In this document: positions 26,705 to 34,979 of the stretch, piece by piece
How the letters are laid out: every line of letters starts with the position of its first letter
How positions within the stretch are numbered: position 1 is the stretch's first letter
From: Bdellovibrionales bacterium
GTDB lineage: Bacteria > Bdellovibrionota > Bdellovibrionia > Bdellovibrionales > Bdellovibrionaceae
NCBI GenBank assembly: GCA_005793345.1
Contig: SXSU01000022.1
Span: 62,001-126,000, forward strand
DNA length: 64,000 nt
Direction of reading: 5' to 3'
The notes under the pieces: generated by a model
What the model saw: only the letters and a program-made list of their open reading frames with translations
The model's database searches: none
Told to the model about the DNA's origin: nothing
Made by a program: the position numbers and the translations under genes

Positions 26705-27598
26705 TTAAAAATTGGTTAACCAAAATCCAACCCACTCTTCCTTGGCAAGTCGGCGTTCAATTTTTAAATTTGTATTTTTTAAAAACTCATCAATAAATAA
26801 ATTTTCTCGTTCTTCTAAAATGCCCGTTACTATAATGTGTGACTTGGGCTTCATTGCACGTATCAAATCATCTTTAAGTTTTAATAGAACACCATCAATG
26901 ATGTTTGCTATAACAAGATCAAATTGAGATTTAATATCTTCCAACAATAAGTCACTGACTATGACATTTGAGATATTTGAATTTGCTTTAATGTTTTCAC
27001 GAGCAACTCGAGTTGCTTCCGGATCAATATCAATTGCTATAACATCATTAGCACCTGAGTATTTTGCAATCATCGCAAGAATAGCAGTGCCAGTCCCAAC
27101 ATCAATAACATCAGCTGGTTTATATTTTTGAGGGGCTTGGTAAATACGGTGAATGAGTGCTGCTGCCAATTGTGTTGTGGCATGAGTTCCAGTTCCAAAT
27201 GCCATACCGGGATCAATCCAAAGGGGTGTGACAGCCTCTTTAGGGGCCTTTTCCCAAGAGGGAACAACCCAATAAGGGCCCACAAGCGGAAATGGCTTAA
27301 AGCCTTTTTTCCATTCGGATAACCAATCTTTATGTTCTTCTTCAAAAGTTTCATAACGAATTTGCCAATCAAGTTGTTTAAGTTCATCAAAAAATAATTG
27401 CACTGGTTTTTCATTAAAAAACACATCAATATCTTTATATTTTTGAGAGCGAACCTGAGGATCATATTCCAAGTTTTTTTGAACATAGTTTAGAGCTTCA
27501 GAGATACCTTGCGAGTTATGTTTAAAGCACAATAATGTAACTTCTTCTTCAAGATTTGAGAGAACTTTGTAGAGACGAATGCGATAGTATTTTTCCAT
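26705..27598 (-). CDS. prmA: Ribosomal protein L11 methyltransferase
   Basis: Class I methyltransferase of 297 aa. C-terminal catalytic motifs: 'WIDPGMAFGTGTHATT', 'VIDVGTGTAILAMIAKYSGA', 'AIDIDPEA' and 'VIANIIDGVL'. The N-terminal substrate-recognition part (about 1-95) is present. Codons 2-62 (27413-27594) are duplicated at 29020-29201 on the far side of an ATPase gene, about 91% identical. The present 5' end and promoter may therefore derive from an integration event. First gene of prmA-rsmE-RDD-hldC. Confidence 0.93.
   Translation of the reverse strand: MEKYYRIRLYKVLSNLEEEVTLLCFKHNSQGISEALNYVQKNLEYDPQVRSQKYKDIDVFFNEKPVQLFFDELKQLDWQIRYETFEEEHKDWLSEWKKGFKPFPLVGPYWVVPSWEKAPKEAVTPLWIDPGMAFGTGTHATTQLAAALIHRIYQAPQKYKPADVIDVGTGTAILAMIAKYSGANDVIAIDIDPEATRVARENIKANSNISNVIVSDLLLEDIKSQFDLVIANIIDGVLLKLKDDLIRAMKPKSHIIVTGILEERENLFIDEFLKNTNLKIERRLAKEEWVGFWLTNF
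27413..27594. repeat. Left copy of 182-bp direct repeat (prmA codons 2-62)
   Basis: Matches 29020-29201 without gaps, with about 16 substitutions (about 91% identity). The two copies bracket the ATPase gene 27797-29011 and its hairpin. Confidence 0.9.
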
Positions 27599-27699
27599 TT
27601 CCGTTACTTACATTGAATTAAAACCTTAAGCAAGACTTTAACCCAATTTAAGTTAAAAAAAGGGTCAAGAGAGTTTTGGAAAATCTTTATATTTTTTCC

Positions 27700-27765
27700 C
27701 GACCATTTTCGCGTTACTCGCGAATTTGGTCTTGACTTTTTTCGCGAGTAACGCGAAAATGGTCG
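27700..27765. repeat. Locus-1 ATPase upstream inverted repeat
   Basis: Perfect 25-bp arms (27700-27724 and 27741-27765) with a 16-nt spacer. The left arm begins CGACCATTTTCGCG. Each arm also contains its own small hairpin, TTCGCG-TTACT-CGCGAA and TTCGCG-AGTAA-CGCGAA, so the site can form two small stems or one long one. It lies 31 bp upstream of the ATPase ATG. A diverged relative is at 30479. Confidence 0.92.
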
Positions 27766-27796
27766 CAGGAAACTTCTAAGTAAAAAAGGTAAATCA

Positions 27797-29011
27797 ATGA
27801 AGCGATATATTTTGGATGATGTGCTAACACTTGCGCTAAAGAGAAAAAAAATGGCATTTATATCTGGTCCCAGGCAGGTTGGAAAGACAACATTAGCCAA
27901 AGAAATGCAAAAACAATATTCTGAATCAAAATACTTAAATTGGGACGAAAGTGAATTTAGAAAAATATGGACTAAATCTCCAAATAAAATAAAAGAAAAA
28001 TTTGAACTAGAAAAAATAGATCAAACAAGACTTCTAATTCTTGATGAAATTCATAAATCAAAAAACTGGAAACAAAAACTTAAGGGTCTTTATGATGAGT
28101 TAAATGAGGATCTTCAAATTATTGTTACAGGTAGTGCTCGATTAAATATTTTTAAAAAAGGTGGAGATTCATTGTTGGGACGTTATCTATTATTTCGATT
28201 GCACCCATTTTCATATGGTGAACTACTGAATGCGCCAAAAGTTACACCTGAAGTTTGGAAAAGCAACTTATTTGAAAAAAAGTCCACAATAAAAAATGAA
28301 AGAGAGATTTTGGAACGACTTTATAAATATAGTGGATTCCCTGAACCGTATTTAGCCGCTTCAGATAAAATTTTAAAGATTTGGCGACGAGGACGAAATG
28401 AAAAAATAGTTCGGGAAGATTTGCGAGATTTGAGTCGCCTTCCTGAATTAAGTCGGATAGAAATGTTGACAAGTCTCTTACCTGAAAAAGTAGGAAGCCC
28501 CTTAAGTGTGCAAAGTCTACGAGAGGATTTAGAAGTTGCTCATGACACTGTCACACGTTGGTTAAACTATTTAAACCAACTATATTATTTTTTTGAGCTA
28601 AAGCCTTGGACTAAACAAGTTGCTCGAACAATTAAAAAAGAAGGAAAAATTTATTTATACGACTGGACAAATATAGAAACCGATGGCCCACGCTTTGAAA
28701 ACTTTATTGCATCACACCTGTTAAAAGCATGTCATTTTTGGACAGATACAGGCGAAGGAGATTTTAATTTACACTATTTACGAAATAAGGAGAAACAAGA
28801 AATAGATTTCTTAATGGTAAAAGATAAAAAGCCGTGGTTAATGATAGAATGTAAATGGAGTGATACACAAATTGAGTATAAAAAAATTGAGAAATTTCAA
28901 AACTATTTTAATTGTCCTTTTGTTCAAGTAGTATACTCACCAAATATTTGGCGGCTTACTGAAAATCAATTAGTTTGTAGTGCTGATCGTTTACTAGGAC
29001 AACTTCCTTAA
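27797..29011 (+). CDS. AAA ATPase with C-terminal DUF4143/nuclease-like domain (locus 1)
   Basis: 404 aa. Walker A GPRQVGKTT at 24-32, Walker B LLILDEIHK at 79-87, and sensor-like 'IIVTGSARL' fit the AAA_14 group. The C-terminal region has 'EKQEIDFLM…LMIECKWS' (about 334-353), a PD-(D/E)xK-like pattern as in DUF4143 proteins. The family is widespread in archaea and bacteria with no settled function. AAAGG precedes ATG. The gene sits between prmA and a duplicated prmA fragment and behind a large inverted repeat, which suggests an acquired element. It differs in class from the three other window ATPases, which are DUF234-like. Confidence 0.85.
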   Translation: MKRYILDDVLTLALKRKKMAFISGPRQVGKTTLAKEMQKQYSESKYLNWDESEFRKIWTKSPNKIKEKFELEKIDQTRLLILDEIHKSKNWKQKLKGLYDELNEDLQIIVTGSARLNIFKKGGDSLLGRYLLFRLHPFSYGELLNAPKVTPEVWKSNLFEKKSTIKNEREILERLYKYSGFPEPYLAASDKILKIWRRGRNEKIVREDLRDLSRLPELSRIEMLTSLLPEKVGSPLSVQSLREDLEVAHDTVTRWLNYLNQLYYFFELKPWTKQVARTIKKEGKIYLYDWTNIETDGPRFENFIASHLLKACHFWTDTGEGDFNLHYLRNKEKQEIDFLMVKDKKPWLMIECKWSDTQIEYKKIEKFQNYFNCPFVQVVYSPNIWRLTENQLVCSADRLLGQLP

Positions 29012-29019
29012 ATATTAAT

Positions 29020-29201
29020 ATTAAAAAACACATCAATATCTTTATATTTTTGCGATCGCAATTGGGGATCATATTCAAAGTTTTTTTGAACATAGTTTAG
29101 AGCTTCAGAGATACCTTGAGAGTTATGTTTAAAGCACAATAATGTAACTTCTTCTTCGAGATTTGTGAGAATTTTATAGAAGCGAATGCGACAATATTTT
29201 T
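29020..29201 (-). pseudogene. Duplicated 5' fragment of prmA
   Basis: Copy of prmA codons 2-62 in the same orientation as prmA. The frame is intact with no stops or indels, but the start codon is lost and the rest of the gene is missing. Of 15 changed codons, 9 are synonymous and 6 change the residue (Tyr to Cys, Leu to Phe twice, Val to Ile, Ser to Thr, Val to Leu). Mostly silent or conservative change suggests the copies diverged while functional. It starts 9 bp after the ATPase stop. Confidence 0.9.
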
Positions 29202-29381
29202 TTAAAATTATGATTAATGTTGTTATAACTATTTGAATTAAAAAATAAATTCAAACTAGTGACCTTTATTGTCAGAATGTACAAAACTCTACAGTTTTTT
29301 TATGCTTTAACTTACGCTATATTTTTATCGATATCAAAATGAAATTCAAAAACTTTGCAACTGTATCGGAGAATATTTATT

Positions 29382-30302
29382 ATGAAAAAAATAATGGGTA
29401 CTATTTTTTTAATGTTAGCTCCAAACTTAGTAACTGCAGCTTCAGTTTACCATTGCTCAACAGAAGATAATATTTCAAAAATAAGAATAGAAGTTATTGG
29501 AAATGGTAAAGTCAAAATCAATGAAGTTGATACTGCAAAAATGATTAAAAAGGATATCATAAAAAAAGATGGAGTTACTTTTTATAATTTTGATGGGGAT
29601 TCTACATCAAAAAAAATTACTTCGATTGGAGATGGTGTAAAGGGTAATGAAGTAAAGCTTTATTTAACTGACAAGTTAATTAAAGACAACGCTAATGAAT
29701 CTATTAGTATATTTACCATTAACAAACAAGCCAGTAGTGATTCTTCTAATGAAATATCATTTACTTGTTTACCTAGACAATTTTTAACATTTGACGATAT
29801 TTATTTTAAAACTAGTTCTGAAGCTACGGTTTGGTTATCGAAAAAAAGTAAAAAATATCCCACTCTAGTTAATTTTAAATATGAACATCCATTAATTACA
29901 GGCTCTGAAGTTGATTTGAACTATTATAAAACTTTAAAGTTAGATAGTGAATATTTTGGAAAAGTTCATATTGGTTTATTTGCGGATCAGTATAAATTTG
30001 AGAGCAATTTTTATTTAAGTTTACTTGTTAAAATTGACGACGATAAAACAGAAAAAAGTACTGAAGTGAAAACTATATTAGAAAAAAAATTACAAAAGTT
30101 ATTAGAAAAATTGAAATTGCAAAACACTAAGGGAACATTAAATTCAAAAGTAAGAAAAAATTATAAAAATGAAACAGAGGTGCTTGCATCCTTTATAGCT
30201 CCCTTAATGAATGGTGAAACTGATACAGAAGCGGTTGGTTCAAAAGATTTTTTCTATATTCACGCGGATGAACTATATCATATTAGCAAGATAGCAGATT
30301 AA
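29382..30302 (+). CDS. Secreted protein of unknown function
   Basis: 306 aa. Signal peptide 'KKIMGTIFLMLAPNLVTAAS' with a probable AxA-like cleavage site near residue 20. ATG at 29382 is preferred (GGAG about 10 nt upstream); a TTG at 29355 is in frame. The mature part is Lys-rich with one early Cys (YHCST) and one later (FTCLP), perhaps a disulfide. No family recognised. It lies between the prmA fragment and the orphan hairpin at 30479. Confidence 0.65.
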   Translation: MKKIMGTIFLMLAPNLVTAASVYHCSTEDNISKIRIEVIGNGKVKINEVDTAKMIKKDIIKKDGVTFYNFDGDSTSKKITSIGDGVKGNEVKLYLTDKLIKDNANESISIFTINKQASSDSSNEISFTCLPRQFLTFDDIYFKTSSEATVWLSKKSKKYPTLVNFKYEHPLITGSEVDLNYYKTLKLDSEYFGKVHIGLFADQYKFESNFYLSLLVKIDDDKTEKSTEVKTILEKKLQKLLEKLKLQNTKGTLNSKVRKNYKNETEVLASFIAPLMNGETDTEAVGSKDFFYIHADELYHISKIAD

Positions 30303-30478
30303 AAAGTTACGGGGGTATTTAAATATAATCTTATATTTTTAAAATAAATATATTTGGCATGTACTGATTAGTATTTAAATAACCAATCTAATTCAAGTAG
30401 TAACAATGTCTACTTTAAAGAAAAGGGGAGCTTCCTTTACCTCAGTTTTAGTTTATTTTTTTAAATTGGTTTTATTTT

Positions 30479-30513
30479 CCGAACATTTTCGCGCTACACA
30501 CGAAAATGTTCGG
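30479..30513. repeat. Orphan inverted repeat related to the locus-1 hairpin
   Basis: CCGAACATTTTCG (30479-30491) pairs perfectly with CGAAAATGTTCGG (30501-30513) over a 9-nt loop. Its first 26 bases differ from the locus-1 left arm region (27699 onward) at only about 4 positions. It may be a relic of another copy or the far boundary of the locus-1 element. Confidence 0.75.
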
Positions 30514-30539
30514 GACTAGATTCGCGTCAATAATGAGGT

Positions 30540-31133
30540 TTAAGTTAGAAACTTAAAGTGCTGAATGTTAATAAAACCAGAATCAATATTTTTGGACGCT
30601 GTACTTTTAGGGTAGGATAAGGCTAAATTTGTTCTAGCCTCTTTAACTAACGCTTGAAAATCATTTGTGATCCAATCATTAATTTCATTACAATCACTTG
30701 GAGGTGTATCACTTGTGCAATTAAGAATTGCTTCAGTAAATTTTTTATTTATCTCTTGTTCTTTTTTTATATTTTCATGGAGTAGGTTTAAACATTTTTT
30801 TGCAATGGGTTCACGATTTCTATCATAAAAAGGAACATTAAAATTTATTATCCCTGCCTCGGGGCGGTTGTTAAGAGAATCATCTATTTTTTTATTATAA
30901 TCCACTTTTGCTTGCTCGGTGTTTTCATCAATTATTGGTAATGGATTGCAAGCCTTTAAAAAATATTTTGAAGTGTCTGCAAATTCTTGAAAAAGAATTT
31001 CCTTGGTTGATGTAAAGTCTTCTTTGGAGACAGGTGGGGAATAAACTGGACAGTGATTACTTTGTTCTGATTGCAAATCCAAACTAATTAGTACAATTAT
31101 AAAAATAAAAGATTGGATTTTTAATCTACCCAT
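30540..31133 (-). CDS. Secreted protein of unknown function
   Basis: 197 aa with an N-terminal signal-like segment (about 6-22, 'SFIFIIVLISLDLQ'). The mature part is helical and charged with several Cys (HCPVY, KACNP, KKCLN, LNCTS, SDCNE), so it is probably an oxidised periplasmic or exported protein. It begins 7 bp after the end of the 31141 gene on the same strand and is likely cotranscribed. No family recognised. Confidence 0.6.
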   Translation of the reverse strand: MGRLKIQSFIFIIVLISLDLQSEQSNHCPVYSPPVSKEDFTSTKEILFQEFADTSKYFLKACNPLPIIDENTEQAKVDYNKKIDDSLNNRPEAGIINFNVPFYDRNREPIAKKCLNLLHENIKKEQEINKKFTEAILNCTSDTPPSDCNEINDWITNDFQALVKEARTNLALSYPKSTASKNIDSGFINIQHFKFLT

Positions 31134-31140
31134 TTAGTGC

Positions 31141-31701
31141 CTATTGTTGAAGAGCAATATGCGAAGAATCTTTGGGTTGATCTTTTTGTTCAACATTTTC
31201 AATAAACGATCCTTCCAAATCAATCTTATCTCCGACAAAAACTCCTTGAGCTTCTGTTGTTGGAATTTTTGATAGGTCCGCTGTTGTATGCAATCTGGCA
31301 ATGGCCATGTGTGGTTGTACATATATTATTTTTAGCAAAGCAACTGGAATAATCATTTTAATACCATCTTTGTATTTACCATTTTTTGCAACGATAACTT
31401 CTCTTACTACTTTTAAAACCATGTTCTCTTTTATGCCTGCATCTAACCCGCCAGAAATATAATAATCTTTATAAACTTGGTCGTCGTCATTCATAGAGAT
31501 ATTTCTTTGTGTATTTATGACTTCTAAATTTGAACTTAAATCTGTGTGTTTATATGTCTTATTAAATAGCAAATCAGTGTTGATACTATTATTAATGTTA
31601 TTACTGTTTTTCTCTTTTTTGGCAGCAACAGCAATTGATATTTTAGATAATTGCAAACCCACTATCAAACAATAAACTAACAAAACGTTTCTTTTACTCA
31701 T
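31141..31701 (-). CDS. Exported protein, possibly flagellum-associated
   Basis: 186 aa. Signal peptide 'VLLVYCLIVGLQLSKISIAV' ending near AVA-A. An Asn-rich linker precedes a beta domain: 'DYYISGGLDAGIKENMVLKV', 'MIIPVALLKIIYVQPHMAIARL', 'VGDKIDLEG'. That pattern of a small barrel ending in 'GDKI' resembles the C-terminal region of FlgT-type flagellar proteins. Together with its position divergent from fliC this hints at a flagellar link, but similarity is by eye only. Confidence 0.55.
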   Translation of the reverse strand: MSKRNVLLVYCLIVGLQLSKISIAVAAKKEKNSNNINNSINTDLLFNKTYKHTDLSSNLEVINTQRNISMNDDDQVYKDYYISGGLDAGIKENMVLKVVREVIVAKNGKYKDGIKMIIPVALLKIIYVQPHMAIARLHTTADLSKIPTTEAQGVFVGDKIDLEGSFIENVEQKDQPKDSSHIALQQ

Positions 31702-33026: not shown

Positions 33027-33058
33027 AAAAAGGCTGTCAAAACTTGACAGCCTTTTTT
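33027..33058 (+). terminator. Rho-independent terminator after fliC
   Basis: GGCTGTCAA (33032-33040) and TTGACAGCC (33044-33052) form a perfect stem with a 3-nt loop, flanked by A5 and T6 runs. Confidence 0.95.
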
Positions 33059-33066
33059 GTTTTCAA

Positions 33067-33347
33067 AATAACTGCTCATGATTAAGTCTGATCAGCTTGC
33101 GCTGATTATATCAGACATAATCATAAGCAGTTATTTTCCTGTTTGTTTGGGGCGATTTTCAATCACCCCGTATTATGAAAATCCAAACTAAAGTTTGTAT
33201 TTTCATAATAACTGCTCATGATTAAGTCTGATCGCTTAGCGATTATATCAGACATAATCACAAGCAGTTATTTTCTTGTTTATTTGGGGCGATTTTCAAT
33301 CACCCCGTATTATGAAAATCCAAACTAAAGTTTGTATTTTCATAATA
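33067..33347. repeat. Composite hairpin repeat, two B-C-A units in reverse orientation
   Basis: Module A at 33067-33135 and 33207-33272, each followed by module C (GGGGCGATT/AATCACCCC) and module B (ATTATGAAAAT…ATTTTCATAAT). Read on the minus strand this is B-C-A-B-C-A. The apical stem of A differs between the two copies (ATCAGC-TTGC-GCTGAT versus ATCGC-TTA-GCGAT) but pairing is kept. It separates fliC from ATPase locus 2. Confidence 0.9.
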
Positions 33348-33361
33348 AAGAAAGCGTACTT

Positions 33362-33490
33362 TATAATCAAATAGATAAAACATCGGATTTATAATTTGAT
33401 TACAAACCCGATGTTTTATCTATTTGATTATACTATTATCTTGCAAAAGTAAAACATCGGATTTATAATTTGATTACAAACCCGATGTTT
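33362..33490. repeat. Locus-2 ATPase upstream hairpin pair
   Basis: Hairpin 1 has perfect 25-bp arms (33362-33386 and 33408-33432) around a 21-nt loop. Hairpin 2 (33452-33490) repeats its inner 39 bp exactly: AAACATCGG and CCGATGTTT around the same loop. The second ends 4 bp before the first possible ATG of the ATPase gene, and AAGG follows it directly. Confidence 0.95.
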
Positions 33491-33500
33491 AAGGATGAGC

Positions 33501-34979
33501 ATGTACATTCAACGAGAAGAAACTGAAAAAATTTTAGAAAGCTACTTATTGAACAAACAGCGAACAGCTAGCCTATGTTTTCTTAGAGGACGTAGACGAA
33601 TTGGCAAATCAACTTTGCTAAAAAGAATTGCAAATACATTAAATGTTCCATCGTTTTATTTTATGGGTGCTGATGATGAACCGCAGGCTCAGTCAGTAGA
33701 TCGTTGGATTACTGAGTGGATTAAAATTTATCCCAAAACAAAACTTCCGATGTACTCAAAAACTAAATTGAGTTGGAAAATAATATTTGAAGAGATTATT
33801 CAGTATGGCATTGAAAATAAAAAAACCACCCTTGGAATTTTTATAGATGAGATACAATGGGTGGCTAAATCAAAATCAGGATTTATTGGACAGTTCAAAG
33901 AAGCATGGTTAGAGCTTGAAAAACTACCAAATTTAAAATTTATTTTTTGTGGGTCCTCAAATAAGTTTTTTTATGATTATTCGGGCGGTGAGGAAACAAT
34001 TTTAAGAGGATTGTGTACCCATGATGATATATGGGTCAGTGATTTTAATTTAAAAGTACTAAGGGAAAATTATGGGAGAGAGTGGACACTAGAAGAAACT
34101 GTATTTTCTTTAATGTCTCTTGGGGGCGTTCCTTACTATTGGAACCAAGTTGTTGAGGAACAGTCATTTATCAACTCGTTTAATATATTGTGCTTCACAC
34201 AAAAAACTATTTTTTTAAAAGAAGCCGCAGAGATGCTCAGGTTAGAATTTAATGAAGCTGGAACAGAAACTGTTTTGAATATTATAAATGCGATAGGTAT
34301 TCACGGAAAAGAATTGAACTCAATAATAGAAAAGACAAATATTCCTGCATCAACAGTTATTGATACAATAAAAAAACTATTAAATTATAAACTAATTCAC
34401 GAAAAAAAGTTTTATGAATTGAGTATGAAAAAAAACAAAAGGGGGACGGTATTTTTAATTTCAGATCCCTACTTAAACTTTTATGTCGAAGTGCTAGTCC
34501 CTCTTCAGAGAAAAATTAAAAACAATTTAGGTAATAAATTGTTATTTGCAGATATCTTAAAATCAAAAAGTGGATACTATATAGAAAACTACTCTGGATA
34601 TGCTTTTGAGAGATTAATAATAAAAATATTGGAAAAGCATACTGACCGAAAAGAAAAAATATTTTCACTAATCGGAATTCAAGACTGCGATTATCATGTT
34701 TCAAATTTAAGTTCAAAAGAAATACAAATTGATATAGTGATTCATAATACTTCAGACAGAGTAATTAGATTAATTGAGTGTCGCTGGACTCAAAGTAGTA
34801 ATAGTATAATTGAATTAGCAAAAAATTATGAGTATAGAGCTCAAATATTTATAAATAAATTTAACATTAAAGAGCCTATAAAAAAATATATAATTACTAA
34901 CTGCGCACTTACATCTGATACAAAGCAAAGTATCAATAAAAGTAAAGTAAAAATTTTAAATTTAGAGACGTTAATCTAA
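33501..34979 (+). CDS. AAA ATPase with C-terminal DUF234/nuclease-like domain (locus 2)
   Basis: 492 aa. Walker A RGRRRIGKST at 29-38, Walker B 'LGIFIDEIQW' near 110-119, 'FIFCGSSNKFF' sensor region, and a winged-helix-like middle. The C-terminus has 'IQIDIVI…LIECRW' (about 408-428), a PD-(D/E)xK-like pattern seen in DUF234 proteins. ATG at 33501 is favoured by AAGG at 33491-33494; ATG at 33495 would be too close. The region is AT-rich with many rare-looking AAA/ATA codons, like a transferred gene. No partner gene is adjacent; the hairpin pair abuts the start. Confidence 0.85.
   Translation: MYIQREETEKILESYLLNKQRTASLCFLRGRRRIGKSTLLKRIANTLNVPSFYFMGADDEPQAQSVDRWITEWIKIYPKTKLPMYSKTKLSWKIIFEEIIQYGIENKKTTLGIFIDEIQWVAKSKSGFIGQFKEAWLELEKLPNLKFIFCGSSNKFFYDYSGGEETILRGLCTHDDIWVSDFNLKVLRENYGREWTLEETVFSLMSLGGVPYYWNQVVEEQSFINSFNILCFTQKTIFLKEAAEMLRLEFNEAGTETVLNIINAIGIHGKELNSIIEKTNIPASTVIDTIKKLLNYKLIHEKKFYELSMKKNKRGTVFLISDPYLNFYVEVLVPLQRKIKNNLGNKLLFADILKSKSGYYIENYSGYAFERLIIKILEKHTDRKEKIFSLIGIQDCDYHVSNLSSKEIQIDIVIHNTSDRVIRLIECRWTQSSNSIIELAKNYEYRAQIFINKFNIKEPIKKYIITNCALTSDTKQSINKSKVKILNLETLI

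Follow-up and report, generated by a model that had tools for sequence, protein, structure and literature searches.

Duplication of the prmA 5' end across an inserted candidate defense gene in a Bdellovibrio relative fits addition of foreign DNA by homologous recombination

Codons 2-62 of prmA, the gene for ribosomal protein L11 methyltransferase, stand on both sides of an inserted ATPase gene in an uncultured bacterium related to predatory Bdellovibrio, and the 3' end of a second gene in the same genome is repeated across an inserted peptidase gene. The pattern fits foreign DNA added by ordinary homologous recombination, not by a specialized mobile element. Read in this way, accessory genes (a candidate defense gene and a peptidase gene) would have been gained naturally beside housekeeping genes without an integrase, and twice in one genome. 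The stranded gene end would be a datable scar that can be found by computer, and such scars offer a measure of how often plain recombination adds single genes to bacteria. The assembly is 3.96 Mb in 138 contigs, with 83% completeness and 5% contamination. The window is the whole stretch of 64,000 nucleotides that was analyzed, and the positions given below refer to it unless another locus is named.

The prmA gene is intact at 26705-27598 on the minus strand and encodes 297 amino acids (PF06325, E 1.5e-57). Its product also matches TIGR00406 (E 5.6e-50) at 170 bits, which is under the 183-bit cutoff of that model. The protein is 62% identical to its counterpart in the nearest relative, G017; a scan of GTDB genomes for a nearer PrmA gave a best match of 39%. 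The two copies of the gene end form repeat family D1, in which copy A (27413-27594, minus strand) is the 5' end of the working gene and copy B (29020-29201, minus strand) is the stranded end. As the preliminary description had it, codons 2-62 recur in the same orientation and without gaps across the ATPase gene; the repeat finder gave 182 nt for each copy, 91% identity, 16 differences, and a spacing of 1607. BLASTN recovered the pair within the 64-kb window at E = 1e-68, and in the whole 3.96-Mb assembly the prmA 5'-end sequence occurs in only these two places (E 6.6e-91 and 3.1e-69). The copies are homologous as far as the prmA start codon at one edge; at the other, the similarity breaks off abruptly at codon 62, 8 nt past the ATPase stop codon (29011). 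The flanks beyond either edge cannot be aligned. Copy B has no start codon, since TTA stands at the position of the prmA ATG. A new prmA promoter would have to sit in the intergenic stretch between prmA and the ATPase gene (27599-27796), where the promoter scan found no minus-strand sigma-70-like site.

The usual upstream neighbor of prmA in relatives, a conserved gene, is at 31141-31701 on the minus strand and marks the right edge of the inserted region. In 26 of 31 relatives (24 of 29, plus two further loci) its orthologue is the immediate same-strand neighbor upstream of prmA, and none of the relatives compared has the ATPase gene or the two ORFs that lie between prmA and this gene here. 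Because prmA adjoins the orthologue in relatives without any of the three, 27599-31140 is an insertion, and the relatives have the empty site; the integration at prmA that was first proposed is upheld in this respect. Here 3.5 kb of non-native DNA separates prmA from its old neighbor. The first of the two ORFs (29382-30302, plus strand, 306 aa) has a signal-peptide-like start and 27% GC, and the homologue search found no counterpart in 65 other family genomes. The second (30540-31133, minus strand, 197 aa) has weak homologues, 22-31% identical, in 3 of those 65. Searches of ORFs, domains, and profiles revealed no recombinase, integrase, or phage gene in 27599-31140.

The inserted ATPase (27797-29011, plus strand, 404 aa) is an AAA_14-DUF4143 protein (PF13173, E 3e-30; PF13635, E 2e-26). 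It matches the PADLOC model PDC-S01 (E 2.9e-52), which makes it a candidate virus-defense gene, and it bears a nuclease-like EIDF...IECKW motif. PDC-S01 is a common candidate defense family in which an ATPase is fused to a PD-(D/E)XK domain (PMC12988326); the inserted ATPase resembles it in its model matches and in having both the AAA_14 and the DUF4143 domain. Orthologues 63-67% identical were found in four other genera (G020, G052, G023, and G003), all at different loci, and no genome other than this one had an orthologue beside prmA. The G020 orthologue is 67% identical, compared to 52% for PrmA. Since the orthologues sit at other loci and are nearer to the inserted gene than PrmA is to its own counterpart, the ATPase gene has moved horizontally. 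A sequence search for a solved structure resembling the ATPase returned none, and a literature search on AAA_14 ATPases as mobile genes returned nothing.

At the columns where the two prmA ends differ, copy A carries residues that are common among relatives. Copy B carries Y5C and L43F, each present in 0 of 28 relatives, and L9F, present in one of 28. These atypical residues mark copy B as decaying and non-functional; copy A is the working prmA end. The layout agrees with the preliminary description, in which the 5' end of the working gene lay on the insert side and a second 5' end was stranded beyond it. The accompanying claim that the duplicate shows little damage was not sustained, as copy B lacks the ATG and carries all three substitutions. 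Polarizing A against B with relatives was tried and dropped, G017 being too distant at 62% identity. Summed over the differing codons, G017 shares 24 nt with A and 25 nt with B; because it matches the two alike, a comparison of native with foreign has no power, and neither copy can be assigned as foreign from the present relatives.

The codon comparison gave 9 synonymous changes, 6 amino-acid-changing ones, and 0 stops between A and B inside the repeat, the same counts as originally reported, or 9 synonymous to 7 nonsynonymous with codon 2 included. P values for these changes were computed with a simple binomial model in which the mutation biases were assumed. Under that model, pure neutral drift of copy B was rejected for the 9:7 split (P = 0.006-0.02), purifying selection on both copies fit marginally (P = 0.025-0.066), and a duplication with A constrained and B neutral was not rejected (P = 0.10-0.22). 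The probability that 16 neutral changes would hit no stop is 0.3-0.5, and clustering of the differences along the repeat was not significant (P = 0.22). The earlier argument that a drifting duplicate would show more damage is weak against these figures, and neither the excess of synonymous changes nor the absence of stops is enough to separate duplication and decay from a foreign gene end.

These results indicate more than one possible origin. The copies could have arisen in place and in one lineage, either through template switching at a break in prmA or through a tandem duplication followed by insertion, after which A was selected and B decayed. The lost start codon and atypical residues of copy B agree with such a history, as does the fit of the 9:7 split to a constrained A and a neutral B. 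However, a random duplication does not need a repeat edge at the start codon, and at a second locus, built in the same way, drift of the stranded copy is rejected. We consider in-place duplication a serious contender, but an unlikely one.

That second locus was found in a search of about 1,200 ORFs, which covered approximately one third of the genome and gave one further clear gene-end duplication besides prmA. Most other direct repeats in the sampled third are intergenic, and two clean cases from that portion are a small sample. At L095:3514-6810 (contig C73), an FAA-hydrolase gene has its 3' end duplicated on the far side of an M1-peptidase insert: the last 241 nt are repeated past the peptidase gene at 95% identity, and homology ends 4 codons before the stop. 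Of the 12 codons that differ, nine are synonymous, and the reading frame of the stranded copy is intact, with its own stop. Duplication with drift was rejected here (P = 0.007-0.022, same binomial model). The FAA gene of the nearest relative stands next to the orthologue of a gene that here lies beyond the M1-peptidase insert. Both FAA gene ends seem to have been functional during their divergence, that is, to have diverged in different lineages. The preliminary proposal that one gene end came from another lineage is accordingly favored by the FAA locus, but at prmA itself the equal match of both copies to the nearest relative lends it no help. Because the FAA locus contains an M1-peptidase gene only, the gene-end duplication layout needs no ATPase. 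This genome contains about 36 DUF4143 genes, and none of the 35 other loci has a gene-end copy across it, which likewise argues that the ATPase is not required for the duplication.

The best account, in which we place somewhat better than even confidence, is that a recircularized fragment of a related donor integrated additively by a single crossover. DNA with a related prmA 5' end and the ATPase gene would have arrived from another member of the lineage, and would then have been trimmed and circularized so that the end of the ATPase gene was joined to prmA codon 62. The circle would have entered the resident prmA through one RecA-type crossover inside the common gene end, producing a complete prmA with the copy A end, the ATPase gene, and copy B, the stranded prmA end, which would have decayed afterwards. 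The accessory genes at 29382-30302 and 30540-31133 may have been present between prmA and its old neighbor beforehand, or may have been acquired later. We infer a donor, a circle, a single crossover, and a foreign origin for one of the two gene ends. The decay of copy B and the lack of a recombinase gene are observed. The unique repeat, the empty site, the non-native inserts, and the ATPase-free FAA locus are also observed and count in favor of the account, as do layouts in two other family genomes, G060 and G019. At both prmA and the FAA gene, the target segment is directly duplicated on the two sides of the insert in the same orientation; at prmA, homology is confined to the common segment, and foreign DNA lies between. 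The homology ends where the gene does, at the start codon of prmA and 4 codons short of the FAA stop, as would be expected if two orthologous ends, each with its own unrelated flank, were joined. Counted against a single crossover are the length and identity of the repeat, since 182 nt at 91% is a short and imperfect RecA substrate, and the compatibility of the prmA pair, taken alone, with duplication and decay.

A precedent comes from E. coli, in which linear DNA homologous at one end is trimmed, recircularized, and integrated by a single crossover (PMC3240628). A duplicated target segment was present in 56 of 60 screened clones and measured 109-950 bp in the 14 that were sequenced (PMC3240628). 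The product there, as here, is an insert between direct duplications of a target-gene end, and the repeats of 182 and 241 nt fall within that range and match this duplication product. In contrast, the E. coli system used an engineered plasmid, 1 kb of lacZ homology, and identical copies, whereas the copies here are natural and 91-95% identical. On balance, the layout is probably a case of this known kind, additive Campbell-type integration.

In G060, a 94-nt repeat surrounds a DUF4143 ATPase gene, with a cytochrome-like gene after the second copy and an empty site in congeners; copy A alone is detectable in 2 of those congeners, at 74-77%. The same genome has a 70-nt decayed gene end beyond an aldolase gene. 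In G019 (L219:1956-4449, contig C7), an inserted DUF6088/AbiEii pair is flanked by a regulator-like gene and by a decayed copy of that gene with an internal deletion; the duplicated gene looks like an Rrf2-type regulator.

Homology-facilitated illegitimate recombination (HFIR) of a linear donor, with homologous exchange inside prmA and illegitimate joining at codon 62, is improbable here. HFIR is recognized by loss of resident DNA and by microhomology at the joint. It would account for a donor gene end, a new gene, and a stranded resident end, and it has been proposed for Vibrio cholerae effector arrays, where stepwise displacement of effector genes in T6SS clusters is attributed to it (PMC5361080). 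Those clusters resemble the prmA locus in that an accessory module is added at a conserved anchor and older pieces are moved outward. However, they are immunity-gene arrays at a secretion cluster (PMC5361080), whereas the anchors here are housekeeping genes whose own end is duplicated and retained. True HFIR made up 4 clones in the E. coli experiments, and its product deletes resident DNA without duplicating the homologous segment (PMC3240628), in contrast to the duplication found here.

An assembly artifact, in which two metagenome strain haplotypes (prmA-ATPase and prmA-ORF 29382) were written in series, is slightly less probable still. Concatenated alleles would yield the same layout, and the fragmentation, completeness, and contamination of the assembly leave room for such an error. 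On the other hand, copy B without a start codon is not a working allele, the region contains no run of N, and comparable layouts occur in the separate assemblies of G060 and G019.

Within the one family, DUF4143 genes number from 0 to 38 per genome, with 17 in G060 and none in most of its congeners. The promoter of the inserted ATPase gene contains a perfect palindrome (27700-27765, repeat I6) with 25-bp arms and a 16-nt loop, predicted to fold into a hairpin of -34.3 kcal/mol (z -10.2); the promoter scan placed a promoter-like TTGACT/GAAAAT site inside it. An upstream palindrome score of at least 14 was found for 31% of 84 DUF4143 genes compared to 5% of 239 control ORFs (Mann-Whitney P ~1e-8). 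Near-perfect palindromes with arms of up to 33 bp, all different in sequence, occur no more than 170 nt upstream of the DUF4143 ATPase genes at L064, L078, L068, L091, L224, and L232, several with TTGAC in the loop. They are possibly private operators or break-prone sites. DUF4143 genes, each with its own promoter palindrome, could be solo selfish genes, with breakage by palindrome or nuclease provoking recombination and insertion beside new genes and sometimes dragging along the end of a neighboring gene. The patchy spread, unique palindromes, and cross-genus transfer are compatible with this reading, but gene-end copies are exceptional and the FAA locus has no ATPase, and we regard it as very unlikely.

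Gene-restoring integrative elements, such as e14 and phage 21 in icd and SXT in prfC, encode an integrase and have an att core. They share with the prmA locus an intact gene on one side, a stranded end on the other, mostly synonymous divergence, and an empty site in relatives, and the preliminary description had favored a dedicated element of this kind that restores prmA. Such an element, with a replacement gene end and its integrase since lost, is the most doubtful origin, because no recombinase or phage gene was found in the insert and the layout is missing at the 35 other DUF4143 loci of this genome; the repeat is 182 nt and not an attachment core, and the FAA locus holds an M1-peptidase gene only.

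Further repeats were seen near these genes. The ATPase palindrome has a related hairpin at 30478-30512 (repeat D5; fold -14.1 kcal/mol, z -4.7), and a 14-mer common to both hairpins (at most 1 mismatch) occurs genome-wide at only these two sites. Together the hairpins enclose the ATPase gene, copy B, and the ORF at 29382-30302. Elsewhere in this genome, at L082:4963-5975 (contig C73), direct repeats of about 100 nt, 97% identical, enclose a run of small ORFs, about 800 nt long, immediately upstream of another DUF4143 ATPase gene. In the window, tandem and inverted repeats with 108-, 53-, and 41-nt units (33054-33490) lie directly upstream of a second, PDC-S27-like ATPase gene (33495-34979).
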